Below are positions 3,434 to 64,000 of a stretch of DNA of 64,000 nt, piece by piece. How positions within the stretch are numbered: position 1 is the first letter of the stretch; the number at the start of each line of letters is the position of its first letter. Position numbers and translations under genes: made by a program. This stretch comes from Chryseobacterium gleum (GTDB lineage Bacteria; Bacteroidota; Bacteroidia; Flavobacteriales_D; Sanyastnellaceae), in the NCBI GenBank assembly GCA_945874695.1, contig CAMCHP010000001.1:1-64000 (forward strand). Reading direction: 5' to 3'. Under the pieces are notes generated by a model. The model saw nothing but the letters and a program-made list of their open reading frames with translations. It ran no database searches and was not told where the DNA came from.

Positions 3434-3456
3434 TTTTCGCCCTAAACGGGCGGATG
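3434..3456 (+). repeat. Palindromic repeat, copy 1 (stem CGCCC/GGGCG)
   Basis: TTTT, then CGCCC-TAAAC-GGGCG, then GATG. Lies in the gap between the aminopeptidase start and the omega-amidase stop. Both arms differ from the canonical CGGCC/GGCCG stem by compensating changes. Confidence 0.8.
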
Positions 3457-5531: not shown

Positions 5532-8033
5532 ATGCGCAAACTTTACTTCTTTCTCGCGGCGTTGCTAATGGCCAGCACAGCTACAAGCCAAGAAACGCCG
5601 TATGTTCCTGGTGAAATCATTGTCATGATGGAAAAAGGCAATAGCCCACACACCACGGCAGCCATTTTGTCGCGAATACTGGCACCGCAATTGAGCATCG
5701 AAGTCAGCGCGTGTTTGTCTGAACGCAGCGCTATTTATCTACTAAATTATTCGACCTCACTCGGCAACGACGAGGCAATTTTGACAAAAACACGCCAAAT
5801 GTCTGGCGTACGCGCGGCCCAATTCAATCACTACATCACTGAACGTGCTACGCTGCCAAACGACCCTTCCATCGGCACCCAATGGCACCATGTGAATGGC
5901 AACGACCGCGACATTGACAGCGATCTTGCTTGGGACATTACCACAGGCGGAAGCACAGCAACAGGTGACGAAATCGTGGTTTGTGTCATTGAACCTGGAG
6001 GAGCGAATTACAACCACAACGACCTCATCGCTAACCACTGGACAAACACCTCTGAAATCGCTGGAAACGGCATCGATGACGATGGCAACGGATTTGTTGA
6101 TGACGTGAATGGATGGAACCCAAGCGGCAATAACGACAACGTAGGAACCGGCAACCACGGCACAGCTGTGTCAGGTATGATCGGTGCCCGAGGCAACAAT
6201 GGAATTGGCGGCGCAGGCGTGAACTGGGACGTGAAAATTATGCAAGTACGCGTGGGCTCGCTCACTGAATCGAACGTTATTGCTGCTTACAACTACCCCT
6301 ATGTGATGCGCAACCTGTACAACACTACGGGCGGCAGCCAAGGTGCACTTGTTGTGGCAACAAATGCTTCTTGGGGCATCGATAACGCCAATCCGAACAA
6401 CTACCCGGTATGGTGTGCTTACTACGACGATTTGGGCGAGGTAGGCATTCTCAACTGCGGTGCTACAGCCAACAACAATGTTAGCATCGACGTGGTGGGC
6501 GACATGCCTACCGCTTGCAGCAGCAACTTTATGATTGCTGTAACGGCCACCAACACCAACGATGTGCGTACATTCTCGGGCTATGGCGCAACGACCATCG
6601 ACCTCGGCGCACCTGGCGAATCGGTTTTTTTGCCTTCTGGCTCTACTTCGTATGCCAATACCTCTGGAACCTCGTTCGCTAGCCCATGCGTAGCCGGCGC
6701 CATTGCCTTGGTTTACAGCACACCCTGCCCTGACCTCGCCGCACTCACACTGAGCAACCCCCAATTGGCTGCAGAACAAGTGCGTGGGTATATTTTAAAC
6801 GGTGTCGACATTGTCGGCAACCTCATTCCTGAAACTGTAACGGGCGGACGGTTGAACGTGCGTAACTCCATCGACTTGGCGCTCGCCAACTGCGGACCCC
6901 TGCCTGATTGCAATCCTGTTGATCTTACCCTAGCTACCTCATGCTACTTCAACGAAGTTGATCAAAGCATTGAAGCAGAAATTACATTGGATGTTACACT
7001 CTCTGAAAACTGGTGCAATGCCACCTCGGTATGCTACCAAGCTGCAGGAGGTAACGTAGTGTGCGACGACCTTGTCGCACTCGGTGTGAACGTGAACAAC
7101 CTCAACAACTACACCATCTTCGGTTTGGCATCGAACACAACCTATACGGTGTATTACACAACCGCAAACGGCACCTCTGCAAGCGTGAACATCACCACAG
7201 GAAACTGCAGTGCGCTGATTCCAGGTTGCACAGATTCCTTTGCCGTGAACTACAACCCCGCAGCTACTTTCGACGATGGCAGTTGCGAATATCCTTGCAC
7301 GCAAGTGACCTTTAGCATCACGACCGATTGTTGGGGCTATGAAAGCAGCTGGAACATTCAAGCCGCTGATGGAACCACCGTAGCCTCCATTCCATTCAAC
7401 ACCTACGGAAACAACCAAACGTACACCTGGACGGGCTGTCTCGAATGGGGGTGCTACACCTTTAACATCCTCGACAGCTTCGGTGATGGATTAGCCGGAA
7501 TTGCATCAGGCTGCGTACAAAACGGCAACTACAGCCTCGTTGATGACCAAGGAAACACGCTCTTTCAAATGGGAGCCCCCAATTTCGGAAGCGGAACCAA
7601 CCACGCATTCTGTGTGCCCGTTGATTTGCCCGGCTGCACCGATGTGGCGGCGTGTAACTACAACGCGCTGGCTACCATTGACAACGGCTCTTGCACCTAC
7701 CCCGATGGTTGTACCGATGCTGCAGCATGTAACTACAATCCTGCCGCAACGTGCGACAATGGCTCTTGCTCCTATGCATTTGGTTGTACCGACAGCCAAG
7801 CCTGCAATTACGATCCCTCAGCGCTATGCGATAGCGGCTGCGAATACCAAAGCTGCGCGTCGTGCCTAGGTGATTTCAACAGCGATGGCTTCCGCACAGT
7901 GGCCGATTTGCTGATGCTCATGTCTCAATTTGGTTGTGTATCTGGTTGCGCTTATGACCTCGACAACAACGACTACATCAATGCAGCTGACATGGTTGTC
8001 TTCCTGAGTCTTTTCGCTACAGCGTGCAACTAG
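5532..8033 (+). CDS. Secreted S8 (subtilisin-like) peptidase with GCTD repeats and dockerin-like C-terminus
   Basis: 833-residue exported protease. Signal peptide at 1-20 (cleavage near TATSQ). The peptidase domain spans about 110-455: histidine motif at H209 (HGTAVSG), oxyanion Asn N278, nucleophile S381 in SGTSFASP. The position normally held by catalytic Asp (VIDTG) reads VIEPGG, so E154 replaces Asp. After the catalytic domain come repeats of the type GCTDxxAxNYNPxATxDDGSC (about 565-590 and 700-775), probably calcium-binding and cross-linked by cysteines. The last 55 residues resemble a dockerin module (GDFNSDG...DLDNNDYINAADM). No classical T9SS CTD is seen; the same tail ends the gene at 55774. 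It is transcribed divergently from ybdL. Confidence 0.9.
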   Translation: MRKLYFFLAALLMASTATSQETPYVPGEIIVMMEKGNSPHTTAAILSRILAPQLSIEVSACLSERSAIYLLNYSTSLGNDEAILTKTRQMSGVRAAQFNHYITERATLPNDPSIGTQWHHVNGNDRDIDSDLAWDITTGGSTATGDEIVVCVIEPGGANYNHNDLIANHWTNTSEIAGNGIDDDGNGFVDDVNGWNPSGNNDNVGTGNHGTAVSGMIGARGNNGIGGAGVNWDVKIMQVRVGSLTESNVIAAYNYPYVMRNLYNTTGGSQGALVVATNASWGIDNANPNNYPVWCAYYDDLGEVGILNCGATANNNVSIDVVGDMPTACSSNFMIAVTATNTNDVRTFSGYGATTIDLGAPGESVFLPSGSTSYANTSGTSFASPCVAGAIALVYSTPCPDLAALTLSNPQLAAEQVRGYILNGVDIVGNLIPETVTGGRLNVRNSIDLALANCGPLPDCNPVDLTLATSCYFNEVDQSIEAEITLDVTLSENWCNATSVCYQAAGGNVVCDDLVALGVNVNNLNNYTIFGLASNTTYTVYYTTANGTSASVNITTGNCSALIPGCTDSFAVNYNPAATFDDGSCEYPCTQVTFSITTDCWGYESSWNIQAADGTTVASIPFNTYGNNQTYTWTGCLEWGCYTFNILDSFGDGLAGIASGCVQNGNYSLVDDQGNTLFQMGAPNFGSGTNHAFCVPVDLPGCTDVAACNYNALATIDNGSCTYPDGCTDAAACNYNPAATCDNGSCSYAFGCTDSQACNYDPSALCDSGCEYQSCASCLGDFNSDGFRTVADLLMLMSQFGCVSGCAYDLDNNDYINAADMVVFLSLFATACN

Positions 8034-8069: not shown

Positions 8070-8092
8070 CATCCGGCCGTTTAGGCCGAAAA
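8070..8092 (-). repeat. Palindromic repeat, copy 2 (canonical)
   Basis: Canonical stem CGGCC-TAAAC-GGCCG on the minus strand with TTTT before and GATG after. It lies in the 68-bp gap between two convergent genes (subtilase and lysoplasmalogenase). Confidence 0.85.
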
Positions 8093-10126: not shown

Positions 10127-10768
10127 ATGGCTTGGCAAAAAATGGCATGTCTTTTTCTTGCGGTTGCTGCACTCCAAGTACAGGGTCAACAGCCGCTTTT
10201 TAATTTAGGCCTAACGGCCGGATGGCACGCAGCAGCCATCACACGTCGGCCTGAAAGTAACCAGCTTTCACCGGTGGCCGCATGGGGCGTCAACAATGCG
10301 CATGGAGGCGCATTCATGGAGATCCGTCTGCGCGAACCGGTTTACCTGCTCGCTGAAGCACAGCTTTCCAGTTTGAATACACGGGGCAGTTATTTCGTGC
10401 GCAACAATACCCAAGAAATCATGCGTATGCAAGCCTCCATGCGCGAAACCGCATTTCTGTTTTCAGCCTTAATTCAGTACCACGTCGACAATGTGCGGGC
10501 TTGCGTTGGCTTTACTTCAATGCTTCTGCAAAACAGCACGCTCGACCCTGCTCCTGCTTCGCTGGTGAATAACCGAAGGGCTTTTGATTTCGGTCTAACG
10601 ACCGGATTAGAAATCACCCTCAAACCACACCTCAGCGTCACCGCGCGGTTCATTCGGCTTTATGGCGGATTGTACATGGCACGTCCAGAAGGCACTGAAC
10701 AAGCTCGTTACTACCTCTTACAGATCGCTGGGCGCGTGCACATCCGGCCGTTAGGCCGAAAACCATAA
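10127..10768 (+). CDS. Exported outer-membrane beta-barrel-like protein, function unknown
   Basis: 213 residues with a signal peptide (MAWQKMACLFLAVAALQVQG, cleavage near residue 20). The rest is rich in alternating hydrophobic and aromatic residues suggesting a small beta-barrel (for example LLAEAQLSSLN, ACVGFTSMLL, LSVTARFIRLYGGLYM). I do not recognise a specific family. Two copies of the palindromic repeat lie in this gene: one just after the signal peptide (encoding GLTAGW) and one at the very C-terminus (encoding IRPLGRKP). The gene is divergent from the AGMO-like gene. Confidence 0.75.
   Translation: MAWQKMACLFLAVAALQVQGQQPLFNLGLTAGWHAAAITRRPESNQLSPVAAWGVNNAHGGAFMEIRLREPVYLLAEAQLSSLNTRGSYFVRNNTQEIMRMQASMRETAFLFSALIQYHVDNVRACVGFTSMLLQNSTLDPAPASLVNNRRAFDFGLTTGLEITLKPHLSVTARFIRLYGGLYMARPEGTEQARYYLLQIAGRVHIRPLGRKP
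10204..10225 (+). repeat. Palindromic repeat, copy 3 (inside gene, loop one base shorter)
   Basis: AGGCC-TAAC-GGCCG followed by GATGG, one mismatch from the core. It is in frame with the outer-membrane protein and encodes GLTAG just after its signal peptide; the gene at 55774 has the same peptide from the same repeat. Confidence 0.65.
10741..10762 (-). repeat. Palindromic repeat, copy 4 (end of gene)
   Basis: Minus-strand TTTT, CGGCC-TAAC-GGCCG, GATG. It forms the last codons of the outer-membrane protein gene, antisense to it, and the stop codon follows within a few bases. Confidence 0.8.
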
Positions 10769-12984: not shown

Positions 12985-14928
12985 CTACTCCCGCAGCACT
13001 TTCCAAACGCGCATTGCGCCAAAAGCATCGCGCACGACCACATGGTACACACCCGCAGTAGCGGGCAGTGTGATGCGTTGATTAAGGTTGCGTTGAAAGG
13101 GAACTACCATCCGACCGTTTAGGTCGAAAACCCCAAACTCGAACTGCGAAAGTTTCGCTGGATCGCCAATAATGCGTACCACGCCGTCAGGTGTTGGATT
13201 GGGACCGAGGCTCAACCCGGCAAAGGCCGATTCGACCACATGGGTTGTGCTACCGAAAATGCGCTCCTTCACCAAAACAGGCGATTGATCTGCAGCATCA
13301 AACATCGACTTGAACGATTGAATTTCAGCATCGTCCCATGCAAACATCTCTTCCATCCAACGCGGTGGAACACTTTGATACCATGCCCGCGCCTCCACTG
13401 AAATGGGGCCTACGTAACCGTTTACCCCAACCCGATACTCAATGCGATCGGTGCCGCTGCCCTCCACGCCGTTCAGCCGATTGAAGTTGAGGTCGCTTTC
13501 GTCAACACCCGCAATGCGCACCGTATCGTAGCTCAAATGGGAAGTCGTAAAGCCAGTAGGCACCAAGCGATTGTCTTTTAGCAGGGTGTGTGCCCGTTCG
13601 AGCACCGTAGTGGGTGTACCCGAAACATCGGCAAACACCATCTCATAGATCTGCACTTGGTCATCGCCGCGAATCACGTCGTGGTGAGGCTCCCAATCGA
13701 GGTCGCGCCCCAAAATCTCATAATCGGCATCGAAGCCGCCGCTTTGAAACAAGACGTTGTTGGCTTCATCACGCACCACAAACTCAATCGACAAAAGGCG
13801 ACTGGGGTAACCCGAAGGGAATTTATGTCCGGCCAAGTTCACCAAATCGACTGCGAATACCGCTGTATCGTTTGTGGTGTTGAGGTGACTCACGGTCATG
13901 TTCAAGCTCTCTTCTTGGAGCAGGTATTCTGTGCGCTCGACAACGGCATCGAAATTGGCATCGCTAGCAGTAAGCCCCAAGGCCTCAGCATTGTCTTTCA
14001 TGAGTTTTAGCATGAAACTGTTTCCGCCGACGAAATAGTGCTTCTTAAACGGTCGAGGAAAAAGCCACGATGGCGAAGTAGCTGCGCTAGCGCCGCCCTC
14101 AGCTTCAGGCATGTGGCAAGTTTGACATTCAACCTGTTGCTCATCGTACACCGAGTTCAACCATTCATGGTAGGTGGCTTGCTCAAAAAAGGTAATCCCC
14201 AAACTGTTGCCCTCAAAGTCAACTGTTTGCAAAAACAAACTGTGACAACCCGCGCAAAGCTCGCTTTCACCTACGTGCGGGCTGTACACGGGAGCGAAGC
14301 CCGTTTGCTGAATCATGGGGCTGGCCCAAGGATCAGTAAATGTTCCGTAAGCAATGTTATCAGCGTTGTAAGTTTGATTGCCATTGAACGTATTGGCTAA
14401 ATCGACATCTGCAATGGCATGACAGCCGATGCAACCCACCCCGTCGAGGCCGAGTTCATCGGTACTTAAATATTCCATGGTATAGTGTCCTTGCTGCCCA
14501 GTCATCTCAAACTCACTGTGCCCTTGCGGCGCGTGGCATGCGGTACATGCATGTTCAATTTCATTGGCAAGCGATGGCGTCTCAAGTACTTCATGGCGCA
14601 CTTTGGCCTTCCAAAAGGGGTCTTTCGCTGCATTGGCCATCAGGGTCGCCCGCCAATCGTTTACTGGTGAAACGTCGTTGCCTAGGGCATCAACGGCTAA
14701 AAGCCCGTTCGGGTCAGTGTTATGGCAATTCACACAATTGCCACTTCCGGTCATGAACTCACCCGTTGCGGTGGTTAATTCAGTCATTCTGAACGTGACT
14801 TGTTCTATCGGCGAATGGTAACGGTTGGGAGCAGGTACAAATGCGGTAAACCCGAATGCAGCAAGCACCATCAACGTAAGAGCTACGGGCAGCGGACGAA
14901 ACATTTTCTGTAGCGATTTCTTAAACAT
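12985..14928 (-). CDS. Exported pentaheme cytochrome c with T9SS C-terminal sorting domain
   Basis: About 647 residues from the ATG at 14928, chosen because a -7 box lies 7 bases upstream of it; the frame is open to 14973. Signal peptide or anchor at about 12-32. Five CXXCH haem sites lie at about 65, 128, 166, 225 and 268, the last with a following Met (CQTCHMPE). The middle is a beta-rich domain without haem. The end is a type A T9SS sorting domain (about 572-647: LGPNPTPDG, FGVFDLNGRMV, AGVYHVVV, VWKVLRE), so the mature protein is predicted on the cell surface or secreted. The FDLNGRM stretch is encoded by a palindromic repeat. It is divergent from a PQQ-type dehydrogenase with the same kind of tail. 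Confidence 0.88.
   Translation of the reverse strand: MFKKSLQKMFRPLPVALTLMVLAAFGFTAFVPAPNRYHSPIEQVTFRMTELTTATGEFMTGSGNCVNCHNTDPNGLLAVDALGNDVSPVNDWRATLMANAAKDPFWKAKVRHEVLETPSLANEIEHACTACHAPQGHSEFEMTGQQGHYTMEYLSTDELGLDGVGCIGCHAIADVDLANTFNGNQTYNADNIAYGTFTDPWASPMIQQTGFAPVYSPHVGESELCAGCHSLFLQTVDFEGNSLGITFFEQATYHEWLNSVYDEQQVECQTCHMPEAEGGASAATSPSWLFPRPFKKHYFVGGNSFMLKLMKDNAEALGLTASDANFDAVVERTEYLLQEESLNMTVSHLNTTNDTAVFAVDLVNLAGHKFPSGYPSRLLSIEFVVRDEANNVLFQSGGFDADYEILGRDLDWEPHHDVIRGDDQVQIYEMVFADVSGTPTTVLERAHTLLKDNRLVPTGFTTSHLSYDTVRIAGVDESDLNFNRLNGVEGSGTDRIEYRVGVNGYVGPISVEARAWYQSVPPRWMEEMFAWDDAEIQSFKSMFDAADQSPVLVKERIFGSTTHVVESAFAGLSLGPNPTPDGVVRIIGDPAKLSQFEFGVFDLNGRMVVPFQRNLNQRITLPATAGVYHVVVRDAFGAMRVWKVLRE
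13108..13130 (-). repeat. Palindromic repeat, copy 5 (stem CGACC/GGTCG, in T9SS domain)
   Basis: Minus-strand TTTT, CGACC-TAAAC-GGTCG, GATG. Sense to the cytochrome gene and in frame, encoding FDLNGRM of its sorting domain. Both arms carry a compensating change relative to the canonical copy. Confidence 0.85.
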
Positions 14929-14943
14929 ATCTTTGCAAAGATA
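14928..14943. promoter_or_regulatory. Palindromic divergent -7 boxes (TATCTTTGCAAAGATA)
   Basis: A perfect 16-base palindrome made of two back-to-back -7 boxes, one per strand. The minus box (14936-14943) is 7 bases from the cytochrome ATG at 14928. The plus box (14928-14935) points at the PQQ dehydrogenase gene. Confidence 0.6.
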
Positions 14944-14994
14944 GTTGTAACGGCAAGTTAGTTGCTTTGCCATGCAACTTCGTTCTTGAATGGT

Positions 14995-15002
14995 TGAATT
15001 TG
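14995..15002 (+). promoter_or_regulatory. Second candidate -7 box for the PQQ-type dehydrogenase
   Basis: TGAATTTG (7 of 8 to TAnnTTTG), four bases before the ATG at 15007, the same spacing as other probable leaderless genes in the window. Confidence 0.4.
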
Positions 15003-15006
15003 AAGC

Positions 15007-16539
15007 ATGAGAGTACCAGTTCTTTTCACGGCTTTTGCCTTTTTACTGAATGTTTGTTCAACGGCAGTGATGGCGCAACCCACGCGTTTGATTGCCGATC
15101 GCTTGGCTTATATCGACAATGCCATTCAAGTGCTTTCATTCAGCAATTCACCCGATGAAGAACGCCTGTTTTTCATGGCGCACACGGGCAAAATTTATGT
15201 TTTCGAAAATGGTGATGTCAGAGAGCAACTCTTCTTTAATATCGGAGAAGGTGGACTTGACATCGTTGACTTTGGCATCGGTTCTGAAGAAGGCTTAAAT
15301 GGCATGGCGCTTGACCCGAATTATGCCGAGAACGGCTATTTCTATCTCATGTACAACGGTTGGTTGCCAGACGGCAGCGGTACAACCTTATATGATGAGC
15401 ATGTGGTGCGCTTTCGACGCTCATTTGATGACCCATACACCGCAGACCCCACCTTTTGGGAAGAGATCATCACTTTTGAAATGCCACGTCGCGGTCACAA
15501 CGGGGGGAATATTCACTTCGGAACCGATGGATACCTCTATATTTCAGTCGGTGACGGGGGCTCAACGGGTTCTGGCGCAACAGGCGGCGGTAGCGGCGGC
15601 GATGCCGATAACAACGGGCAGCGACTTGATGTAACATTGGGCAAAATTTTACGCATTGATGTCAGCGGACCAGCACCCTACACCATTCCGGTTGACAACC
15701 CATTTTCTCAACAGTTTGGTGCCCGCGGCGAGATTTGGGCTTACGGATTAAGAAACCCCTGGCGTTGGAGCTTTGATCGGTTGACTGGTGACATGTATGT
15801 CGGTGACGTGGGTGAAGTCGATTGGGAAGAAATCAATTACACCCCCGCAGGCGTTGCTGGCGCGAACTATGGTTGGCGCCTGCTTGAAGGCCCTGATTGT
15901 TACGAACCCATTGTCGATTGTGACCCCGAAGACCTAACCGACCGACCGATATTTGCATACCGGCATGATCAAAACTTATGCAGTGTAATCGGCGGTTTCG
16001 TGTACCGCGGCTCACAAATTCCGTCGTTGAATGGCTACTACATGTATTCTGATGCATGTGGCTTTGGGAACGAGAAATTCTGGACGCTCACCGAAACCAA
16101 CACGGGTTGGGAATCAAAACCCGTAGAAATGATTGTTGAAGGCGGCTTTGTTCCTTGGCAAGAAGTGCGTTATGGCTTCGGCGAAGACAACCAAGGCGAG
16201 CTCTACATTTGCACGCGCCTGGCCGTTTACAAAATCACGAATGACCCCGACGACATTGGCAACGACAACATCGACACTGCCGAATTGCAAATCAGGCCGA
16301 ACCCAGCAGTTGATGAAGTCACCCTCGATTTAGGCGGCAATTTTACCTTGGAGTCGTTGGAGTTTTTCGACCTAAACGGTCGGATGGCTGATATCTCCTA
16401 CCCCATTGGTGGGGCATACCGCACGGTAACCCTCGACATCGGCAATTTGGCTGCAGGCGTGTACATTGTGCGTGCACGCTATCTTGGTTTTGACCAAGTT
16501 AAAACAGGGAAGCTACTTATCAACCGGGAAGCGCGCTAA
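15007..16539 (+). CDS. PQQ-dependent sugar dehydrogenase-like protein with T9SS tail
   Basis: 510 residues. Signal peptide at 1-24 (MRVPVLFTAFAFLLNVCSTAVMA). The central part (about 30-415) is a glucose/sorbosone dehydrogenase beta-propeller: GHNGGNIHFGTDGYLYISVGD, RLDVTLGKILRID, YGLRNPWRWSFD and VGDVGEVDWEEIN. Relatives are soluble PQQ aldose dehydrogenases, though some family members lack PQQ activity. The C-terminal 80 residues form a T9SS sorting domain (IRPNPAVDEVTL, FFDLNGRMADIS, AAGVYIVRA), with FDLNGRM encoded by a palindromic repeat. It is divergent from a pentaheme cytochrome with the same tail, a plausible electron acceptor. Confidence 0.88.
   Translation: MRVPVLFTAFAFLLNVCSTAVMAQPTRLIADRLAYIDNAIQVLSFSNSPDEERLFFMAHTGKIYVFENGDVREQLFFNIGEGGLDIVDFGIGSEEGLNGMALDPNYAENGYFYLMYNGWLPDGSGTTLYDEHVVRFRRSFDDPYTADPTFWEEIITFEMPRRGHNGGNIHFGTDGYLYISVGDGGSTGSGATGGGSGGDADNNGQRLDVTLGKILRIDVSGPAPYTIPVDNPFSQQFGARGEIWAYGLRNPWRWSFDRLTGDMYVGDVGEVDWEEINYTPAGVAGANYGWRLLEGPDCYEPIVDCDPEDLTDRPIFAYRHDQNLCSVIGGFVYRGSQIPSLNGYYMYSDACGFGNEKFWTLTETNTGWESKPVEMIVEGGFVPWQEVRYGFGEDNQGELYICTRLAVYKITNDPDDIGNDNIDTAELQIRPNPAVDEVTLDLGGNFTLESLEFFDLNGRMADISYPIGGAYRTVTLDIGNLAAGVYIVRARYLGFDQVKTGKLLINREAR
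16364..16386 (+). repeat. Palindromic repeat, copy 6 (stem CGACC/GGTCG, in T9SS domain)
   Basis: TTTT, CGACC-TAAAC-GGTCG, GATG. In frame with the PQQ-type dehydrogenase, encoding FDLNGRM, with the same codons as copy 5 in the neighbouring cytochrome gene. Confidence 0.85.
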
Positions 16540-17051: not shown

Positions 17052-17678
17052 ATGTTAAGAAGCACAGGCGTACAATTTCGCTATCCTGGGGGTAGCCCGA
17101 TGCAGTTTCCTGATGTCGTATGTGGCGCCCAAGAGCACCTGCTCCTATTGGGCGAATCAGGCACCGGAAAAACAACCCTTTTGCACTTGTTGGCGGGCAT
17201 GCTTCGTCCGTCAGCCGGTTCAATTGTGATCGACAACCAAGAAATCACCAACCTTTCAAGCCACGCACTCGATCGTTTTCGCGGCGCCCGCATTGGAATT
17301 GTCTTTCAAACGGCACACTTCGTGCACAGCCTCACGGTTGAAGACAATCTAACATTGCCCCAATTCTTAGCGGGCAATTCAAGCGACAAACAGCGCGCGC
17401 ATGATTTGTTAGCACGCATGAATCTTGCGCACAAACTCTCGAGCAGACCCAGCGAACTGAGCATTGGTGAGCAACAGCGCGTGGCGATTGCACGTGCACT
17501 GATGAATAATCCGGCCATATTGCTGGCTGATGAACCAACCTCGGCACTCGATGACAAAAACGCCAGCCAGGTAATCGATTTGCTTGAGGCTGAAGCGCGC
17601 AACACCGGTGCGTCGCTCATCATTGTTACCCACGACCAACGCTTAAAAGACCGTTTTGAAAAACGCGTGACCCTATGA
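17052..17678 (+). CDS. ABC transporter ATP-binding protein (LolD/MacB type)
   Basis: 208 residues from the ATG at 17052. Walker A GESGTGKTT (about 35-43), signature LSIGEQQR (degenerate LSGGQ), Walker B AILLADEP and the His switch VTHDQ are all present, so it should hydrolyse ATP. It is the LolD/MacB class, which powers FtsX-like permeases rather than channel importers. Its stop overlaps the permease start by 4 bases (ATGA). It drives the permease at 17675, with the DUF3299 lipoprotein-like gene as third member. Confidence 0.92.
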   Translation: MLRSTGVQFRYPGGSPMQFPDVVCGAQEHLLLLGESGTGKTTLLHLLAGMLRPSAGSIVIDNQEITNLSSHALDRFRGARIGIVFQTAHFVHSLTVEDNLTLPQFLAGNSSDKQRAHDLLARMNLAHKLSSRPSELSIGEQQRVAIARALMNNPAILLADEPTSALDDKNASQVIDLLEAEARNTGASLIIVTHDQRLKDRFEKRVTL

Positions 17679-18859
17679 ACCTCTTCAGAATTGCACGCAA
17701 AAACATTGGCGCCAAACCGTTAAACACGGTTTTAAGCCTCATGTTGCTCGCCTTTGGCGTAGGCATTATTTCACTTCTATTCATTGTCGAAGACAAACTC
17801 CAAGATCAGTTTGATCGCAACATCCGCGACATCGATATGGTGTTGGGCGCGAAAGGCAGTCCACTTCAGCTCATTCTCGCCAATGTGTACCACATTGATG
17901 TGCCTACGGGAAACATATCCCGCCGTGAGGCGGAAAAAATTATGAGGCACCCGTACATTGATGCCGCGATCCCGATGGCGTATGGCGACAATTACGAATT
18001 GTTTCGCATTGTTGGCACTACACCCGCGTATCCTGCGCATTATGGTGCCTCATTGCAAGAAGGCAATATGTTTGAAGCGCCTTACTCGGCGAGCATTGGC
18101 GCAGAGGTGGCAAAAACCCTTGGATTAAAACTGGGTGACCACTTTTTCAGTGCGCACGGTCTTACCGACGGCACCGACGTGCATGCCGACCAGCAGTTTA
18201 CCGTTGTGGGCATCTTTGCACCTACAGGCACGGTAATTGACCAGCTTATTTTGACGCCAATGGAATCGGTTTGGGGTGTTCACGAGGCAGAGGCTGCAGA
18301 GCGAGAAGAAGATCCGAGCGATGAAATAACGGCTGTGTTATTAACGAAAAAGAATCCGCTCGCTGTAGTAATGATGCCTAATTTGCTGAAAGAAACGAAC
18401 ATGCAAATTGCACTCCCCTCCATTGAAATCAACCGCTTGCAATCGAATTTTGGTATCGGCATGGCCACCTTGCGCGCTTTAGCGATTTTAATCATGCTCA
18501 TCTCGTTTGTGAGTGTGTTTATTTCACTTTACAACTCGTTGAAAGAGCGCAAATATGAACTTGCATTGATGCGCACCATGGGCGCGACGCGGTTTACGCT
18601 CTTCGCACTGATTTTGCTTGAGGGCATGCTTTTAACGGCCTGGGGCACCTTGGTCGGACTCGGCCTAAGCCGCATCGGTTTGCTTGCATTGGGCGACCAA
18701 TTGAAAGCCAAATTCCGTTATGACATTGTCGATATGGGTATGCTCCCCGGCGAATGGCTCTTGGTGATTATCACTATCTTTGTAGGTATTTTGGCATCGT
18801 TATTGCCAGCTATTACAGCAGTACGGATTGATATATCCAAAACGCTCGCAGATGCATAA
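17675..18859 (+). CDS. ABC transporter permease, FtsX/MacB family
   Basis: 394 residues with one N-terminal membrane segment (about 18-38), a periplasmic MacB-like core of about 220 residues, and three C-terminal segments (about 268-292, 314-345, 356-382). The element YNSLKERKYELALMRTMGATR is the FtsX-family coupling segment. It contains an acidic and histidine-containing loop (DHFFSAHGLTDGTDVHADQ, about 151-169) that could bind metal. It overlaps both neighbours (ATPase and DUF3299), so the three products probably work together. Confidence 0.9.
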   Translation: MNLFRIARKNIGAKPLNTVLSLMLLAFGVGIISLLFIVEDKLQDQFDRNIRDIDMVLGAKGSPLQLILANVYHIDVPTGNISRREAEKIMRHPYIDAAIPMAYGDNYELFRIVGTTPAYPAHYGASLQEGNMFEAPYSASIGAEVAKTLGLKLGDHFFSAHGLTDGTDVHADQQFTVVGIFAPTGTVIDQLILTPMESVWGVHEAEAAEREEDPSDEITAVLLTKKNPLAVVMMPNLLKETNMQIALPSIEINRLQSNFGIGMATLRALAILIMLISFVSVFISLYNSLKERKYELALMRTMGATRFTLFALILLEGMLLTAWGTLVGLGLSRIGLLALGDQLKAKFRYDIVDMGMLPGEWLLVIITIFVGILASLLPAITAVRIDISKTLADA

Positions 18860-23427: not shown

Positions 23428-23450
23428 CATCCGGCCGTTTAGGCCGAAAA
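23428..23450 (-). repeat. Palindromic repeat, copy 8 (canonical)
   Basis: Canonical CGGCC-TAAAC-GGCCG with TTTT before and GATG after, 4 bases past the stop of the gene at 23455-24108. Confidence 0.85.
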
Positions 23451-25946: not shown

Positions 25947-27383
25947 TTATCTGTTAATCGAAGCTGAAATGGTTCCTGCAGGTACATCGGCAGCCGGCAC
26001 AGAATCTGTTGGAGCTGCCTCAACTTCACCTTCTTTCGCTTCTTCACCTTCTTGAACATAGAAGGTATCGAGTTGTTCAAGCCAAGCCTTGTATTGCGTT
26101 TCTGAATCCACGACTATCTTCATTTGCATATTGAAGTGCGCTGCACCGCATACTTTGTTGCAAAGCAAAACATAGTCAAAGTCCTCATCGCCCGTAATTA
26201 AGCGCATGCTATCGGTTGTGATCGTCGGTGTCATTTTGAATCGTGTAGGTACCCCTGGCACGCAGTTCATTTGCGCACGGAAGTGTGGCATGTAAGCGGA
26301 GTGAATCACGTCGCGTGAGCGGAAGATGAATTCGACTTCTTTGCCCACGGGTAAGTGAAACTCACCCTTGATGATTTTATCGTCTTTACCTGCTTGCCAA
26401 GCGCTCAAATCACCGTCAAAACTGAACTCATCCAGTTCCATGATACGCTGTACGTGACGATCAAGGCGGCGAAGCTTTTCCTTACGCGTTTTAATGGCTG
26501 CATCGGTCAAAATGGTCACCTTGTCTGAAGCGAGCATGGTTTCAATCTCTGCCAAACGTTCGTTTAAGCGCTTCTTCAAACCTTCGTCCATGGCGTGGTC
26601 ACCGTGGTCGTGATCACCATGTCCATGTTCACCATGTCCATGTTCACCGCCTTCAAGCTGATGTAAGATATCCTTCTGTTCATCAAGCAATAAACCGCGC
26701 TCATATGCCAGTTCCATTCGGATCTTCTCACGCTCTTTATTGATCTCAGCTAAACTTTCTTCAATACCTTCAGGTGTGACTATTCCGAGTGGATTAGTGG
26801 GTGTAATCAGGTTGTAATTCGAAACGCCGAACTCGCCATCATTGCCTGCATAGCGTGCTGTCCAGTCAAATTGTTTCGAGTAAAGCTCTACGCGAAGCGC
26901 ATCCTCAGCTGCATCACCCGTCATATCGTTCCAAGTGCGCAAACCGTAGATAATGATCACGGCCAATACGATTGAAGGAATTACCGTCCAGATTAACTCA
27001 AGCCGGTTATCGTGCGGAAAGAATTTTGCTCTGCGATCTTTTCGGTAGTAGTACTTCGCAGCAAACCAAAACAATGCTGTGTTTACTAGGAAAAATACGG
27101 CGACGATAATAATGAGGTTGAAATTCATTAATGTGTCAACGGCCGCGCCATGCTCCGATGCCGAAGGGGGCAAATAATCACCGTAGGCTACAAAAAGATA
27201 AATCACCCCGGCGTAAAAGAGAATCATGAAAACGATCCACAATGCCGCATTGAGGCGGTTGTCTGCGTACGAGATTTCTTCTTCTCTCGTCTTCCGCAAC
27301 TTTGCTGTCAGTTCATACACACGGGCGAGTTGCGCCACCGCGATGATCCCTACAACAACCACCAAAAGAATTAAAAGCTTCAT
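25947..27383 (-). CDS. ctaC: Cytochrome c oxidase subunit II with a long His-rich insertion
   Basis: 478 residues, longer than usual. Hydrophobic segments at about 1-20, 47-68, 88-108 and 131-150. The Cu_A domain is split: its first strand (FDWTARYAG, 172-180) is followed by an insertion of about 140 residues (195-335) with charged, coiled-coil-like sequence and a His/Gly/Asp run at 248-263. The Cu_A site itself is complete: H361 (DVIHSAYMPHF), C408, C412, H416 and M419 in CNKVCGAAHFNM. The Glu usually between the cysteines is Lys here. No fused haem c domain. Confidence 0.95.
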   Translation of the reverse strand: MKLLILLVVVVGIIAVAQLARVYELTAKLRKTREEEISYADNRLNAALWIVFMILFYAGVIYLFVAYGDYLPPSASEHGAAVDTLMNFNLIIIVAVFFLVNTALFWFAAKYYYRKDRRAKFFPHDNRLELIWTVIPSIVLAVIIIYGLRTWNDMTGDAAEDALRVELYSKQFDWTARYAGNDGEFGVSNYNLITPTNPLGIVTPEGIEESLAEINKEREKIRMELAYERGLLLDEQKDILHQLEGGEHGHGEHGHGDHDHGDHAMDEGLKKRLNERLAEIETMLASDKVTILTDAAIKTRKEKLRRLDRHVQRIMELDEFSFDGDLSAWQAGKDDKIIKGEFHLPVGKEVEFIFRSRDVIHSAYMPHFRAQMNCVPGVPTRFKMTPTITTDSMRLITGDEDFDYVLLCNKVCGAAHFNMQMKIVVDSETQYKAWLEQLDTFYVQEGEEAKEGEVEAAPTDSVPAADVPAGTISASINR

Positions 27384-31350: not shown

Positions 31351-34300
31351 TTATGCTTGCTGATCTTCTTCTACGTTACGCACTTTCACCATGTAGTAGA
31401 TGTTAGGTTGTACACCAACTTCTTCCAAGGCGTGGTATGCGCGATTATTTTCTGAAATGCTGCGCACTTGGCTCTGCTTGTCGTTCAAGTCACCGAAACG
31501 AATCGCACCGATTGAACATGCTTCAGCACATGCGGTAACAACTTCGCCATCTACCACAGCGCGACCTGCTTTCTTCGCTTCGAGCTTTCCAGCTTGCAAG
31601 CGTTGAACGCACATGCTACACTTCTCCATTACACCGCGCGAACGCACCGTAACGTCTGGGTTCAAAACCATACGTGTGAGCATATCTTGCGCAGGGTTCA
31701 CATTCTGGAACTTGTCATAGCCCATGTAGTTGAACCAGTTGAAGCGACGCACTTTATATGGGCAGTTGTTTGCGCAGTAACGCGTTCCGATGCAACGGTT
31801 GTAGGTCATTTGATTCAGGCCCTCGTTGCTGTGTGTAGTTGCTGCAACTGGACAAACCGTTTCGCACGGTGCGTGGTTACAGTGTTGACACATCATCGGC
31901 ATGTGCACGGTTTGTGGGTTCTCCGCTGGATCTTCCATCTTGCGGTAGGTCGAAATGGCACCCAAACCTTCTTCTGCTCCGCGCTCTTTTGAGTAATCTG
32001 AAGAGTAGAAACGGTCGATGCGCAACCAGTGCATGTCGCGGTGACGAAGCACTTCATCTTTACCTACTACAGGCACGTTATTTTCAGTATGGCAGGCTGT
32101 AACACAGGCTCCACAACCTAAGCAAGAGCTCAGGTCAATCGCCATGCCCCAGCGATGCCCAACACCCTCAACAGGGTGTGCATGCCACAAATCGAAGTCT
32201 CGAATCGACTTTTTATCGCTCGCGTTGATCTCACCGTCGCCGTTCACATCTTCGTGAACACCCAACTTATGCGCCTTATTCCAAGTTGCATCACCTTTCT
32301 GCTTTTCTTTTTCTGCAAGGTATGCAGCTAAAGAGGTTTCCTTCACGACCGAAGTACGGCCCATGTAGGTATGATGCATTTGCGTGCAAGCCAACGGATA
32401 TGTGCCGCCCGCAGCTTCGACTTTCACATCGAGGTTATGCAAAACAGGGTATCCATTCGCTAATGTCGCGAGTGGGTATGCGTTCTTACCAATCGGAATC
32501 AAGTTTCCTGACGTGTCAGACAAATGAGATCCATTCTCTGCGGTTTGGTAAGCGGCCTTGCCAATGCGCTCATTTGATGCGCCTCGGCCGTAGCCAATCG
32601 CAATTCCAATTGTTCCTCGTTTCTGACCCGGTTGCGGGTAAGCTGGCAATACCATCTCAACGCCATTGGCAGTTACCTTAACCAAAGAAGCATGATCGTT
32701 TTGAGCGATGTAGGTGTTCAAGCCCATCTCGTCCATGTCTGCCTTTGCCATGGTTACGTAGTTGTCCCACGTCACCTTAGAAACCGGGTCTGGCAATTCT
32801 TGCAACCACGGGTTTGCAGCATGCGAACCATCCCCCAATCCTGTCTTTTGGTACAAGGCCAATTGCCAAGCGCCACCATTCTGACCATTGAGTTTGCTCA
32901 CAGCATCGCTAACATCCCAACCTGGCGCTGCAACTTCAGCACTTGGCGCCGCCTCATAAGCTGCTGTACCTTGCGTTACGATTGCTGTTTCAGCCAGAAC
33001 GGGCTTTTGCAAGAGTACCCCATTATGAACCGCTGCGTTCCAATCCACATCGGTGTACATCTGATCTTCGGTGTAAGCACTGTTATGCGTTTTCCGAAGG
33101 AAGGTGTAATATGAGTCGATATTATCACTCCACTTCAAGAGGCTCTCTTGCGCCTGACGTGTATTGAAGAGGGGACTGATGGTTGGTTGAACCAAGTCAA
33201 TACGACCTGCAGTCAACGACAAATCATTCCACGACTCGAGGTAGTGGTGATCCGGACAGATATATTGGCAGCGGCTCGCTGTTTCGTCAGACAATCCTGA
33301 GAACGAAACGGTCAGTTTACACTTAGCCAATGCAGCTGCAAAATCGCCTGCTGCATACCATGAGTACGCAGGGTTTGTTCCATAAACGACCAAGGCATCC
33401 ACCTGACCGCTATTCATATTCTTCACCAACTCAGCCATGTCGCGGTCGTTGCCAGCGAACATGCTAACTGGTTCATCTGTATTGATGGTTTTGCCATAAT
33501 TGTTCAACGCTTGGTTGATGGCATTCACGACACGCTGCACGTCTGGATCATTGCTACCAGCAACGACTAACGATGCACCACTGTTACGCTTCAAGGCATC
33601 GGCTGCATTTGCGAGTGCAATCTCACTAACACCGTCAACGTTTCCGTTTCCACTACCTGTCACACGAGCAAGCAAGGCTGCAGCCACTTTACCGTGCTGA
33701 TCAGGACGAATAGCTACGCGCGTATCCGCATTCGTTCCAGTCAAGGACATGATTGTCTCGAACTGGAAGTGGCGCGACATCCACTCCCCTTCAGGTTTGC
33801 GGCGGCTTGCGTAATCGACAGCGTAAAGGTTAGAAGTAAGCCAGTTCGCCAAGAAATCAGCCCCAATGCTTACAATGGTTTTGGCTTGATCGAAGTGGTA
33901 GGTAGGAATGATTGCTTTGCCAATGGTTTTGGCATTCGCTTCACGCATTCCGCTGTATGAAACTGCGTCATATTGAATATGACGGGCGTTGTATTTCACT
34001 TTAAATCCGTCAATCGCGCGCTGCGTTGAAGGAGAAATAACCGTATTGCTCAAAAGCACAACGTTGCTCGAAGCGGCAAGGGCCGCCATGATCTCTTGAT
34101 CAACGGTTGCCCAATCGGCAGGCGCGTTGTTCTTCATCGGACCTTCCAAGCGCGCTGAGTCATAAAGGCTCAACACAGATGAGTTGATGCGCGCATTTAA
34201 CGCTCCACCTTTCACACCGTGTGCTCGATTCGCTTTGATGAAGATCGGACGGCCCTCACGGGTTTTGACGAACATGCTGCCGAAATCGTTGCCATCGTAG

Positions 34301-41709: not shown

Positions 41710-41731
41710 CATCCGGCCGTTTAGGCCGAAA
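41710..41731 (-). repeat. Palindromic repeat, copy 10 (canonical)
   Basis: TTT, CGGCC-TAAAC-GGCCG, GATG on the minus strand, in the gap between the divergent rimP operon and the YwqK-like gene. Confidence 0.85.
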
Positions 41732-47855: not shown

Positions 47856-47878
47856 TTTTCGGCCTAAACGGCCGGATG
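47856..47878 (+). repeat. Palindromic repeat, copy 11 (canonical)
   Basis: TTTT, CGGCC-TAAAC-GGCCG, GATG, 2 bases after the stop codon of the flippase-like gene and about 70 bases before the next gene. Confidence 0.85.
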
Positions 47879-47950: not shown

Positions 47951-49108
47951 ATGAACCACTCACATCAGAAATTTGGCACCCGAGCCGTGCATGCTGGCGT
48001 AGAACCTGATCCAACGACTGGAGCCATCATGACCCCCATTTATCAAACTTCAACCTACGTGCAAGCTGGAATAGGCAACCACAAAGGATACGAATACTCC
48101 CGTACGCACAATCCAACGCGTACCGCCCTCCAAAACAGCTTGGCAGCACTCGAAAACGGGAAACATGGCATCACCTTTGCCAGCGGCCTCGCCGCCATCG
48201 ATGCGGTGGTGAAACTCCTCCGCCCTGGCGATGAAGTAGTGGCTGTTAACGACCTCTACGGCGGAACATACCGCTTATTTAAAACCGTGTTTGAACCTTT
48301 TGGCATCAAATTCACCTTTGTAGACTTGCGCGATGCCAATACCATTGCGCCCCTCATCACCGACAAAACACGCCTCGTTTGGGTTGAAACACCAACCAAT
48401 CCGGTACTCCAAATTGTCGATATCGCGGCCATTGCTCAATTGATTGCCGGCAAAAACATCTTGCTCGCAGTTGATAACACCTTCGCCACGCCTTATTTGC
48501 AAAATCCGCTTGACTTGGGTGCCGACATCGTAATGCACTCAGTCACCAAATACTTGGGCGGCCACTCCGATGTAATTATGGGAGCCTTGGTTGTAAAAGA
48601 CGACGAATTGGGCCAACGCCTCTACACCTTACAAAACAGTTGCGGCGCCGTACACGGCCCGATGGACGCCTTCTTGGTGCTGCGGGGCATCAAAACATTG
48701 CACCTGCGCATGAAGGCCCACTGTGAAAATGGCAAGGTAATCGCCAACTACCTCGTACAGCATCCAAAAGTAGATGCCGTGTACTATCCTGGATTGAAAG
48801 ACCACGTCAATCACGACGTTGCCGCACGACAGATGCGCGATTTCGGAGGTATGCTCTCTTTCACCTTGAAAGACAACACGCTCGAAGCCGCGAAAAAAGT
48901 CGTCAAAAACGTGAAACTCTTCACCCTTGCTGAATCGCTTGGCGGCGTAGAATCACTCATCGGGCACCCCGCTACCATGACCCACGCATCCATTCCTAAG
49001 GTAGAGCGTGAAAAGTCTGGGGTTACTGACTCGCTCGTGCGACTCAGTGTGGGCGTTGAAGATGTTGAAGACCTCATTGCCGACCTCGAACAAGCTTTAG
49101 CCGAATGA
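47951..49108 (+). CDS. Cystathionine gamma-synthase/gamma-lyase family PLP enzyme
   Basis: 385 residues, fold-type I Cys/Met metabolism PLP family. PLP lysine K200 in [11 protein letters not shown]; substrate phosphate/propionate-binding elements [11 protein letters not shown] and the Tyr in [11 protein letters not shown] are present. It could act as cystathionine gamma-synthase or gamma-lyase; the family cannot be split by reading alone. The next gene overlaps it by 4 bases (kynurenine monooxygenase), so they are cotranscribed. Confidence 0.92.
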
Positions 49109-52695: not shown

Positions 52696-53208
52696 TTATT
52701 GAACCACAGCCAGTGAATTAATCAACTTACCCGCTTGAAGGGCCGTGTAGTAATTGTAAATCGCTGTATCGTCGGTGTAGGCCACAAACGATTGATTGCC
52801 CGATTGAAAACACCGAATATAATGATGCCCCGCTGAATTGCCATCGGGTAAAATGGTCTCATAAAACACCGCATCGGGCTGCGTATCGAAGAAAATTAAG
52901 TCGAACAAATCTTGCGCACGCAAATCTTCACGAACGGTCTCAACTGATTGCGCCTCCTGCTTCACATAAAAAACGAAATCCTTTCCAACGCTTACCTGAA
53001 CTATTCCTTGGGGTTGAATGATTTCGACCTGAACGGTCGGATGGGTGGCTCCCTGTTCAGGAAACACTCCAGCCAAGTTGTAGTTCGGGGTACTCACTAC
53101 AAAGGAACTCGCTTGAGGTTGGTCAGCCGATTCGACAACAGCGGGTGCATCCTGCCGACAGGCAGAAAACAAAAAAACACAGAAGGATAACCAAAGTAAT
53201 TTACGCAC
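52696..53208 (-). CDS. Lipoprotein, function unknown
   Basis: 170 residues with a GTG start at 53208. Lipoprotein signal with LFSAC lipobox (Cys near residue 17), then a Ser/Gln-rich spacer and a single alpha/beta-like domain (about 40-168) containing IVQVSVGKDFVFYVKQE and GHHYIRCFQSGNQSFVAYTDD. No family recognised. A palindromic repeat variant (53022-53044) is antisense within it. Confidence 0.72.
   Translation of the reverse strand: MRKLLWLSFCVFLFSACRQDAPAVVESADQPQASSFVVSTPNYNLAGVFPEQGATHPTVQVEIIQPQGIVQVSVGKDFVFYVKQEAQSVETVREDLRAQDLFDLIFFDTQPDAVFYETILPDGNSAGHHYIRCFQSGNQSFVAYTDDTAIYNYYTALQAGKLINSLAVVQ
53022..53044 (+). repeat. Palindromic repeat, copy 13 (stem CGACC/GGTCG)
   Basis: TTT, CGACC-TGAAC-GGTCG, GATGG. 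Antisense inside the lipoprotein gene, encoding THPTVQVEI there. Confidence 0.75.
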
Positions 53209-55773: not shown

Positions 55774-56664
55774 ATGAAATCGCTCCTCGCCTTTCTTTTT
55801 TTCGGCCTAACGGCCGGATGCACCCTCGCACAAACGCCCTTCTGGATTGAAGGGTTTGGCTCAGGCTGCAACACCGGACAGCTGGCAACCGCCTACAGCG
55901 GCCCGAACGGATCATGGACCGTGACCAATACGGGCTCCAACACCGCTACGGCAAACCTTTGGTACATCAGCGGCACCGAAACCAACACTGGCGTTGGCAA
56001 CTGCGGCGCAGAGTGTGGAGCAAATCCGAATCCAACCTTGCACGTCTCCAATCAAACCGTGCTTGGAATTCCTGCTGATATCGGCGCGGCTTACTATGAA
56101 GGCTTAGTCGGCTTTTGCGGATTCATTCCCTGTGCTGCTACCGACAGACGGGTCGAATCACCCACCATCGACTGCAGCCAATACACCGATATTTCGCTTG
56201 AATTCACCTACCTCGAAGGTGGAAACGCCATTGACAACGCCACCGTATGGTACTTTGATGGCAGCACATGGTCACAACTTGATGACCCCGCGAAAACCTT
56301 CAGCGGAGCCTGCTCACCCCAAGGCCAATGGACGCTACTCACCTTGAGTTTGCCCGCATCAGCCAACGAAAATCCGAACGTGAAAATTGGTTTCCGATGG
56401 ATCAACAACGACGACGGCGACGCCACTGATCCGTCTTTCGCAGTGGATGACGTCACGCTTTCAGGTGTGCTCATCGTCGTCGACCCCGCCCCCTGCCTCG
56501 GCGACTTCAACAACGATGGCATCATCAATTCAGGCGATTTGCTGATTCTACTCAGCAACTTGGGCTGTACCGCAAATTGTGTAGCCGATATGAACGGCGA
56601 TGATTACATGGACATTACTGACCTTTTGGCCTTTCTAACCGTGTATGGCACAACTTGCGATTGA
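55774..56664 (+). CDS. Exported protein with dockerin-like C-terminal domain
   Basis: 296 residues. Signal peptide at about 1-20, whose C-region (FGLTAGC) is encoded by a palindromic repeat; GC after it could be a lipobox. A beta-sandwich domain follows (about 22-235; SPTIDCSQYTDISLEFTYLEGG looks like a MAM- or jelly-roll-type module). The last 55 residues match the end of the subtilase at 5532: CLGDFNNDGIINSGDLLILLSNLGC, then DMNGDDYMDITDLLAFL, two EF-hand-like loops flanked by cysteines. No classical T9SS CTD is present. Confidence 0.8.
   Translation: MKSLLAFLFFGLTAGCTLAQTPFWIEGFGSGCNTGQLATAYSGPNGSWTVTNTGSNTATANLWYISGTETNTGVGNCGAECGANPNPTLHVSNQTVLGIPADIGAAYYEGLVGFCGFIPCAATDRRVESPTIDCSQYTDISLEFTYLEGGNAIDNATVWYFDGSTWSQLDDPAKTFSGACSPQGQWTLLTLSLPASANENPNVKIGFRWINNDDGDATDPSFAVDDVTLSGVLIVVDPAPCLGDFNNDGIINSGDLLILLSNLGCTANCVADMNGDDYMDITDLLAFLTVYGTTCD
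55799..55820 (+). repeat. Palindromic repeat, copy 14 (loop one base shorter)
   Basis: TTTT, CGGCC-TAAC-GGCCG, GATG. In frame inside the signal peptide of the dockerin-tailed protein, encoding FGLTAGC. Confidence 0.8.
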
Positions 56665-59972: not shown

Positions 59973-61184
59973 GTGAAGGTGACCTTCTTTATATCGCGCC
60001 GCTACCTGTTCGCACGCAAATCACGCAACATCATCAACGTGATTTCGGCCATCTCCATGTTCGTGGTGGCCTGCGTCACCGCGGCCATGATCACGGTGCT
60101 CTCAGCCTTTAACGGCATCGAATCGCTCGTAAGTCAACTCTTCAGTTCATTCGATCCTGAAATCACCATCAGTCCGGCAAGCGGCAAAGTCTTCGTCGCC
60201 AACGACAGCCTCGTCAGCTACATCGCCGCCCTCGAAGGGGTTGATGTCGTATCACGCACCCTGGAAGATGACGTCATTGTGCGCTTCGATGGCCAACCTG
60301 CCGTAGCAACCCTCAAAGGCGTCGATACCCTCTTCGCATCGGTAACCGATGTCCGTGGCGTGGTGCGGTACGGCGAGTTCCAACTCGCACGCGACGGCCT
60401 GCCCTGCGCCATTGTCGGATTCGGCATCCAAAGCGAACTCGGCATCCCTTTCCATGTTGAAGACTTTCCGGTCTTCACCATTTCGGCCCCCATCCGCGGT
60501 AAAAAACTGAGCCGCCACAAAGAAAAAGCACTCAACACGCTACCCATTCTCATGAGCGCGGTTTTCAGCATCAATGCCGAACTCGACGTAAAATTTATAC
60601 TTGCACCCCTCGATTTCGCCCGTGAATTGCTCGAATACGAAGACGAGGTGAGCATGCTCAGCGTTTCATTGCTTTCGGGCTATCGCCCGGATGCGTTCCG
60701 CAAATCGCTCCAAGCCAAACTCGGCGAGCAGTTCATCGTTGAAACGCGGTATCAACGCAATGCCCTCGTTCACCAAACGAACAGAGCCGAAAAATGGGCC
60801 ACTTTTTTGATCCTCTCCTTCATCATGGTCATCGCCGGATTCAACATCATGGCTTCGCTCACCATGCTCATCATCGAAAAACGAAACGACATTTTCTTGC
60901 TCCAAAGCTTGGGCATGACCGCGCGTGACATCCGTAAAATTTTCAGCTACCAAGGTTTGATGATCAACCTGCTCGGCATGCTCATTGGACTGGTGATCGG
61001 ATTGATTTTGTGCTGGCTTCAGCAACAATTTGGCTTGGTTAAATTGCACGGATCAATCGTTCCCCATTACCCCATTGAAATCCGAACACTCGATATCATT
61101 GGTGTGGTTGCCACCGTTTTGATCATCGGTTCTACTTTCTCGACCTTGATGGTACGCTACCTCATCAAGCGCTTCGCGCAGTAA
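59973..61184 (+). CDS. LolC/LolE-like ABC permease (FtsX family)
   Basis: 403 residues with a GTG start. Helix 1 (about 23-45), periplasmic MacB-like core, then three C-terminal helices (about 275-297, 320-350, 365-392). The opening FISRRYLFARKSRNIINVISAIS is the LolC/E signature. These move lipoproteins toward the outer membrane with LolD. The gene end overlaps dusB on the other strand by 20 bases. The ATPase partner is not adjacent. A repeat variant lies in it at 60673-60693. Confidence 0.88.
   Translation: MKVTFFISRRYLFARKSRNIINVISAISMFVVACVTAAMITVLSAFNGIESLVSQLFSSFDPEITISPASGKVFVANDSLVSYIAALEGVDVVSRTLEDDVIVRFDGQPAVATLKGVDTLFASVTDVRGVVRYGEFQLARDGLPCAIVGFGIQSELGIPFHVEDFPVFTISAPIRGKKLSRHKEKALNTLPILMSAVFSINAELDVKFILAPLDFARELLEYEDEVSMLSVSLLSGYRPDAFRKSLQAKLGEQFIVETRYQRNALVHQTNRAEKWATFLILSFIMVIAGFNIMASLTMLIIEKRNDIFLLQSLGMTARDIRKIFSYQGLMINLLGMLIGLVIGLILCWLQQQFGLVKLHGSIVPHYPIEIRTLDIIGVVATVLIIGSTFSTLMVRYLIKRFAQ
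60673..60693 (+). repeat. Palindromic repeat, copy 15 (stem CGGGC/GCCCG)
   Basis: TTT, CGGGC-TATC-GCCCG, GATG, in frame inside the LolC/E-like gene (encodes GYRPDAF). Confidence 0.55.
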
Positions 61185-63231: not shown

Positions 63232-64000
63232 TCTTCGCTGCCCTTCATAAAGCGCAACACATCTACACCGCTTGAAGTCTCAATGCGCAGGATGTAATAT
63301 CCAACCGGCCAGGATGAAATATCCAATACCGGTGAATCGGCCCTGAACTGTCCGGCAGCGACCATCCGCCCGTCAGGGCGAAAAGCTTGAAAAACTGCTG
63401 GCTCAAGCAAGCCCTGCACGTGCAATTCGCGCACACCCGGGTTTGGGAAAAGCTTGATTTCATGGGCATCATAGACCGTTGCAACACTCACGGGTGCCGC
63501 ACAATCGAGCTCGAAATTTACGTCGGCACTCGCCTCCAAAAGGGACTCAAAATCGGCAAATGCTGTTTCTTCACCTCTAAGCCAAAACGCCAGCCAAGGG
63601 AGCATGTGCAAATTCACGATGGCCTGTTGTTCTTCGCGTGACAGGGTGATCGTACTGCCCGCAAACAGCTCACCCACATCGCACGTTGCGCTCGCATTGG
63701 CGAAGAAACAATGCCCCCCCCTTCGATGGTCACCAAGGCCTTGCATGGTGACGCAGCCGCGTTGTAAATCGGCACCTGGTGGTCGGCTGGTGGTGTAACC
63801 GCATCGCCATCGCCGGCGAACATGAGCATGGGCACGGTCACATTGGCTGCCGCACCAACCGCTGACGGATTGGTTTCAGCCGATGCAAAACCCACATAGG
63901 CGTCAAAATCTCCAACTTGCGCCGCAAGCACGGCCGCGCCTCCGCCCATCGAATGGCCGGTTAAGGCCGCTTGTGGCGTAACATGTCCGTTGAAGAGCGA
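63228..64000 (-). CDS. Partial alpha/beta hydrolase with T9SS tail, interrupted by a frameshift
   Basis: The gene enters from beyond the window end and is read to 63228. The visible 5' part holds the nucleophile elbow GHSMGGG (just after position 63960, read minus), then FAGDGDAVTPPADHQVPIY (catalytic Asp). At a run of eight G (63714-63721 on the minus strand) the frame shifts; the continuation reads GGHCFFANASA (catalytic His) and then a T9SS sorting domain with FRPDGRMVAAGQ, encoded by a palindromic repeat. One missing or two extra G would explain it. The GHSMGGG/GDGDxxxPP/GGHC arrangement resembles dienelactone hydrolase and polyester hydrolase-like enzymes. It may be a sequencing indel, a phase-variable tract or a true pseudogene. 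Confidence 0.75.
63363..63384 (-). repeat. Palindromic repeat, copy 16 (stem CGCCC/GGGCG, in T9SS domain)
   Basis: TTTT, CGCCC-TGAC-GGGCG, GATG on the minus strand; sense and in frame, encoding FRPDGRM in the hydrolase sorting domain. Confidence 0.8.

Follow-up and report, generated by a model that had tools for sequence, protein, structure and literature searches.

The question raised by this locus is what sets the codons of a conserved strand in T9SS type A sorting domains (TIGR04183): the protein, codon preference, or a repeat at the DNA level. Within the window, i.e., the whole 64,000-nt stretch of DNA analyzed here, three such domains (C1:13018-13203, 16294-16521, and 63243-63452) host copies of a short palindromic repeat. 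The sequence-only reading had placed these three copies at the same site, orientation, and frame, and had proposed that a mobile or hairpin element may build or exchange sorting domains or, conversely, that fragments of the domain may have seeded the copies between genes.

Copies of the hairpin in the window

The codons at 13110, 16366, and 63365 each proved to be a copy of the same hairpin, which has the pattern TTC-NNNCT(A/G)(A)AC-GNNN-GGATG. The agreement in site, orientation, and frame holds for the copies at 13110 and 16366 and only partly for the one at 63365: the loop of the latter is one base shorter, so that its 3' arm (CGG ATG) shares the frame of the other two while its 5' arm is offset by one base. 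The two neighboring copies indeed use identical codons over FDLNGRM (TTC GAC CTA AAC GGT CGG ATG). A recent duplication does not account for this identity, as the two domains differ outside the motif and the DNA in common is just 32 nt at 91%. The sequence CGACCTAAACGGTCGGA occurs exactly at 13110-13126 (-) and 16368-16384 (+), with eight matches in the window at up to three mismatches against 0.12 expected, and the wider hairpin has about 18 copies in the window. The copies located are given below; genes were called by codon score, so gene starts are approximate.

3436..3454, + strand, intergenic hairpin copy CGCCC-TAAAC-GGGCG
8072..8090, - strand, intergenic hairpin copy between convergent genes
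10205..10222, + strand, hairpin copy, sense in beta-barrel ORF 10127-10768 (FNLGLTAGW, frame read from sequence)
10589..10606, + strand, hairpin copy in beta-barrel ORF 10127-10768 (FDFGLTTG, frame read from sequence)
10743..10760, - strand, hairpin copy over the C-terminal end of ORF 10127-10768, antisense to it and inverted relative to its partner at 10589
13110..13128, - strand, hairpin copy in the T9SS domain of a multiheme cytochrome, reads FDLNGRM
16366..16384, + strand, hairpin copy in the T9SS domain of a PQQ/sorbosone-type dehydrogenase, reads FDLNGRM
17918..17935, - strand, hairpin copy, antisense in the FtsX/LolC-like permease gene 17675-18859
23430..23448, - strand, intergenic hairpin copy
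41712..41730, - strand, hairpin copy between divergent genes
47858..47876, + strand, intergenic hairpin copy starting 5 nt past a stop codon
49691..49708, - strand, hairpin copy, antisense and without a gap (at ELTIPP) in the kynurenine 3-monooxygenase gene 49105-50451
53023..53041, + strand, hairpin copy with TGAAC loop, runs antisense to ORF 52696-53208 and forms an inverted pair with 53150
53150..53167, - strand, hairpin copy with TGTC loop in the 5' region of gene 52696-53208
55801..55818, + strand, hairpin copy in the signal-peptide region of ORF 55774-56664, reads FFGLTAGC
60674..60691, + strand, hairpin copy with TATC loop avoiding a stop, in the LolC-like gene 59973-61184, reads SGYRPD
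63365..63382, - strand, hairpin copy with 4-nt loop in a T9SS domain, reads FRPDGRM

Repeats of other kinds were also seen in the window. An array with a 15-nt period (39047-39223), which looks alanine-rich by eye when its coding strand is read, lies inside gene 36862-39810, and 15-nt repeats at 26602-26665 fall within gene 25947-27383; the 1080-aa ORF 31351-34593 is a few genes away from the latter. Two similar 63-nt stretches (7856-7918 and 56487-56549; 73% identical) lie in different genes and by eye read roughly CLGDFNxDG..DLLML.

Structure and copy number

The hairpin has a stem of 5 bp, CNNNC/GNNNG (in most cases CNNCC/GGNNG), and a loop of 4-5 nt of the form T..C. Its flanks are conserved, with a T-rich 5' side ending in GTTTT and GGATGG on the 3' side. 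For copy number, 900,770 bases (0.90 Mb) in 94 pieces were scanned out of the 3.09-Mb genome; the pieces were picked around T9SS domains and some repeat matches, so the densities obtained do not represent a random sample. The relaxed form of the hairpin has 240 copies in the 0.90 Mb and one in a reversed-sequence control, which scales to about 600-800 copies per genome (about 590 strict copies as estimated from pieces of at least 9 kb, and about 820 from the relaxed count). Likewise, GTTTTCN{10,15}GGATG was found 213 times in this genome and five times in the control. A search of the 64-kb window against Rfam families gave no match above the gathering score. A 59-nt tandem duplication elsewhere in the genome (G000:C3:55823-55900, L220) carries the hairpin.

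The strict pattern imposes no pairing requirement, and yet all three variable stem positions are Watson-Crick in 174 of its 185 matches; with shuffled 3' arms, a mean of 36.5 and a maximum of 52 were fully Watson-Crick. G-T wobble pairs are almost absent from the stems. Among sequences with intact flanks, there were 148 perfect copies and none with one inner pair broken. This near-universal pairing, with few wobbles and no broken inner pairs, demonstrates that the arms are preserved as exact inverted repeats although their sequence varies. The flanks do not extend the stem, since they pair no better than shuffled flanks.

Effect on T9SS sorting domains

The genome has 101 T9SS type A sorting domains, of which 16 have the hairpin at the V-F-D-L-N-G-R-M strand (hereafter motif 1) and 85 do not. 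Simulations from genome codon usage gave a mean of 1.45 carriers and a maximum of five (300 simulations), and the palindrome is thus kept beyond what synonymous choice allows, which is the point that the sequence-only reading had asked to have tested. The codons involved are uncommon in this genome (CTA, 4% of Leu codons; CGG, 9% of Arg codons). Residues are affected as well. Met follows Gly-Arg in all 16 carriers and in only one of the other 85 domains (Fisher p = 1e-17), and Gly replaces the usual Asp in 4/16 carriers compared with 1/85 of the others (p = 0.002). Based on these deviations from synonymous expectation, the Met in every carrier, and the Gly excess, the codons and some residues of this strand appear to be set by the hairpin and not by the protein or by preferred codons, so the claim that a repeat at the DNA level sets this stretch of the sorting domain is supported. 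Other T9SS domains do use varied codons here without the palindrome, a pattern that had been named as evidence against such an effect, but they also encode other residues, and the pattern tells against the effect only in part. Chance or codon bias as the origin of the repeat was ruled out by the control counts and the codon-usage simulation.

In all, the T9SS domains hold 31 hairpin copies, 15 of which lie at places other than motif 1, in both orientations (6/15 antisense). This corresponds to 31 copies in 21.7 kb, or 1.4/kb, which exceeds the intergenic density in the same selected pieces, and we read this excess as T9SS codons having lain close to the hairpin motif from the outset. Yet the domain does not depend on the hairpin, given that 85/101 lack a motif-1 copy. 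The proposal of a mobile element that builds or exchanges sorting domains is therefore not supported: besides the many domains without a copy, the 16 motif-1 carriers align without gaps, other copies lie elsewhere in the domain, and unrelated conserved enzymes likewise carry the hairpin in place. The hairpin shapes the T9SS strand without being the source of the domain, and it is not a T9SS part, because 63% of the copies lie in a wide variety of genes and on both strands.

Replacement in conserved genes and distribution among relatives

In the conserved genes tested, the hairpin is found in place of existing residues. The copy in LpxB lies at SAYRPDA without a gap in the 29 relatives compared; in one relative, LpxB already reads ILAYRPDA, with DNA that partly matches the hairpin. 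Gap-free alignments were also obtained at ELTIPPLGG of kynurenine 3-monooxygenase (KMO), AYTAGCRRFD of HMG-CoA lyase, helicase motif VI of PriA (SGRSGR/SGRAGR), and the N-terminus of branched-chain E1 beta. For GlmU, there is a gap within 12 residues of the hairpin in 8/25 relatives, and none in the site itself among the 14 alignments inspected. The lack of alignment gaps indicates that, in these conserved genes and in the T9SS domains, the hairpin arose by replacement, not insertion. The copy in GltX falls in a variable-length region and several antisense copies fall in linkers; these may have been inserted.

Among the genomes sampled, the motif is private to this lineage; several of our statements rest on a single genome. 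The form with a TAAC loop, TTCNNNCTAACGNNNGGATG, has 115 copies here and none in 397 out of a sample of 398 other genomes from the order. Best matches of the FBPase were to Flavobacteriales and Cryomorphaceae MAGs, and 0/80 loci from relatives with these matches had the strict motif. A few relatives have a small excess of GTTTTCN{10,15}GGATG (e.g., 39 in G005 and seven in its control). In genus g6 (G005 and G024), there are a few similar hairpins with GTTTTC...GGATG flanks and other stem or loop lengths (e.g., L080, L092, L086, and L090), some of which are common to both species. Other relatives have over-represented words of their own, namely, G012 (L338-L342) and G019 (L348-L352), with CCGCGCTAG/CCGTCCACC and AGTTCCAACAACG; these are possibly other private repeat families. 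Viral contigs gave only three single matches, and a virus-borne motif was rejected.

These observations bear on whether the hairpin is a mobile palindrome of the REP/BIME type, which a Y1 transposase (since lost, perhaps) would have inserted and which would survive in genes only in frame and pair as inverted BIMEs. In favor of this, the hairpin resembles REPs (PMC3733652) in its size and form, high copy number, inverted pairs, and restriction to one lineage, and some antisense copies lie in gene linkers. However, residues in conserved proteins were replaced without gaps, the arms are almost undecayed, and neither a GTAG nor a CGTC tag is present. The only Y1 transposase gene of the genome (L043:1001-2291, G000:C123) is flanked by different palindromic repeats of its own (ATGTCATCCCTACCGAGATTGCGACCCTACGGGTC), by which a RAYT-linked REP was rejected; one hairpin copy lies about 0.9 kb from this gene. 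We consider a REP-like origin unlikely, though it deserves some weight.

Genomic placement and loops

Among the 240 copies, 151 are genic (94 sense and 57 antisense) and 87 lie between genes. In the pieces selected for scanning, this amounts to 0.19/kb in genes and 0.71/kb between genes, i.e., 3.7 times denser between genes. Counts by strand were 84 and 90, and the orientation of intergenic copies relative to their neighbors is about even (16/14/13/21). Copies less than 350 nt apart are inverted in 33/36 cases (p = 2e-7), with stems that differ in most partners. Apart from these inverted pairs, spacing is close to random, by which even spacing as in uptake sequences was rejected.

The loops are matched to the reading frame and avoid stops. 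Between genes, TAAC or TAAAC accounts for 62/87 loops, and 5-nt loops are nearly as common as 4-nt ones. In sense frame S1 and antisense frames A1 and A2, TAAAC or TAAC would create a stop, and other loops prevail there (most commonly TATC, TGAAC, and TGTC, respectively).

The loops TAAC, TGAC, and TCAC resemble UNAC tetraloops, and this likeness would suit an RNA hairpin that is recognized in transcripts, e.g., for processing or stability. The excess of sense over antisense copies within genes (p = 0.003) points the same way and is compatible with some effect at the level of RNA or peptide. However, 38% of the genic copies are antisense, intergenic copies have no preferred orientation, stems have almost no G-U pairs, and 5-nt loops are nearly as frequent as 4-nt loops between genes. 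The even intergenic orientation, even strands, and near-absence of wobble pairs argue for DNA rather than RNA, and an RNA hairpin as the main explanation seems improbable.

A proposed structure-defined DNA motif

The explanation that we favor, to which we give about an even chance, is a lineage-private, structure-defined DNA motif that accumulates in place at permissive sites, with behavior like that of uptake sequences and a shape like that of REPs. The hairpin would act at the DNA level, either as a cruciform or as a fold within one strand, and a putative DNA-handling factor would recognize it. Sequences that carry the hairpin would be retained with a bias, whether through direct selection or through molecular drive of the uptake-sequence kind, and the motif would accumulate at any site where the resulting peptide is tolerated. 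T9SS domains may be a rich host because VxDLxGR codons are few substitutions from the motif and there are about 100 copies of the domain; there, the motif would override codon choice and impose Met and sometimes Gly.

The upkeep of the arms calls for a further step. One-mismatch stems are missing, unlike the graded forms of uptake sequences, so plain point-by-point drive fails to explain it. Template switching during replication could correct the arms (PMC8794818). Taken alone, as a process that makes and maintains perfect hairpins without any recognition factor, it would account for perfect arms without intermediates, by the mechanism described in that work, but it leaves the conserved loop ends, the GTTTT/GGATGG flanks, and the private high copy number unexplained. 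Such a stand-alone role has, in our view, a slim chance, and template switching may instead be the arm-matching step within the favored explanation. The converse idea from the sequence-only reading, in which VFDLNGRMV fragments of T9SS codons spread into intergenic DNA, is very improbable: the repeat consensus reads VFGLNGRM, near the T9SS strand, and copies are dense in T9SS domains, but intergenic stems are mostly GGC, GCC, and TGC, many 4-nt loops break the FDLNGRM frame, and flanking T9SS sequence was not carried along.

The structure-defined motif that we favor may also be a genome-wide DNA mark defined by its fold, which would spread through coding and non-coding DNA via biased retention as a structural uptake or recombination signal and reshape secretion signals and enzymes; we put this broader reading forward tentatively, as possible but doubtful. 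The hairpin matters as a case in which codons and residues of conserved proteins, namely, Met and Gly in T9SS domains and SGRSGR in PriA, visibly follow a motif at the DNA level that keeps its fold rather than its sequence. Through this case, the reach of DNA-level drive into proteomes becomes directly countable. These patterns suggest that, beside known sequence words (uptake sequences and HIP1, for example), there are genome signals defined by structure.

Comparison with known systems

Similar to the DUS/USS of Neisseriaceae and Pasteurellaceae, the hairpin has hundreds of lineage-specific copies in genic and intergenic DNA and on both strands, and both arise by substitution rather than insertion at peptide-tolerant sites (PMC1939737). 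However, DUS/USS are fixed, non-palindromic words with graded over-representation of one-mismatch forms (PMC1939737), whereas the hairpin has arms that covary as they vary, lacks one-mismatch stems, and is inverted in close copies. The GTAG and CGTC families of REP/BIME are also short hairpins with many copies, covarying stems, inverted pairs, and some genic members (PMC3733652). In the hairpin described here, the tag at the foot is replaced by GTTTT and GGATGG flanks, there is no linked RAYT, the majority of copies are genic (151/240), replacement is gap-free, and arms are nearly undecayed. HIP1 of cyanobacteria is likewise an iterated high-copy palindrome with a proposed gain by biased mutation (PMC4390886); its sequence is an invariant 8-mer linked to methyltransferases, in contrast to a loop-bearing hairpin with variable arms. 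Finally, Rickettsia palindromic elements (RPE), as cited in PMC3733652, are palindromic repeats read in frame in many proteins. RPEs are insertions that add residues, whereas the hairpin replaces residues, as seen from the gap-free sites in LpxB, KMO, HMG-CoA lyase, and PriA.
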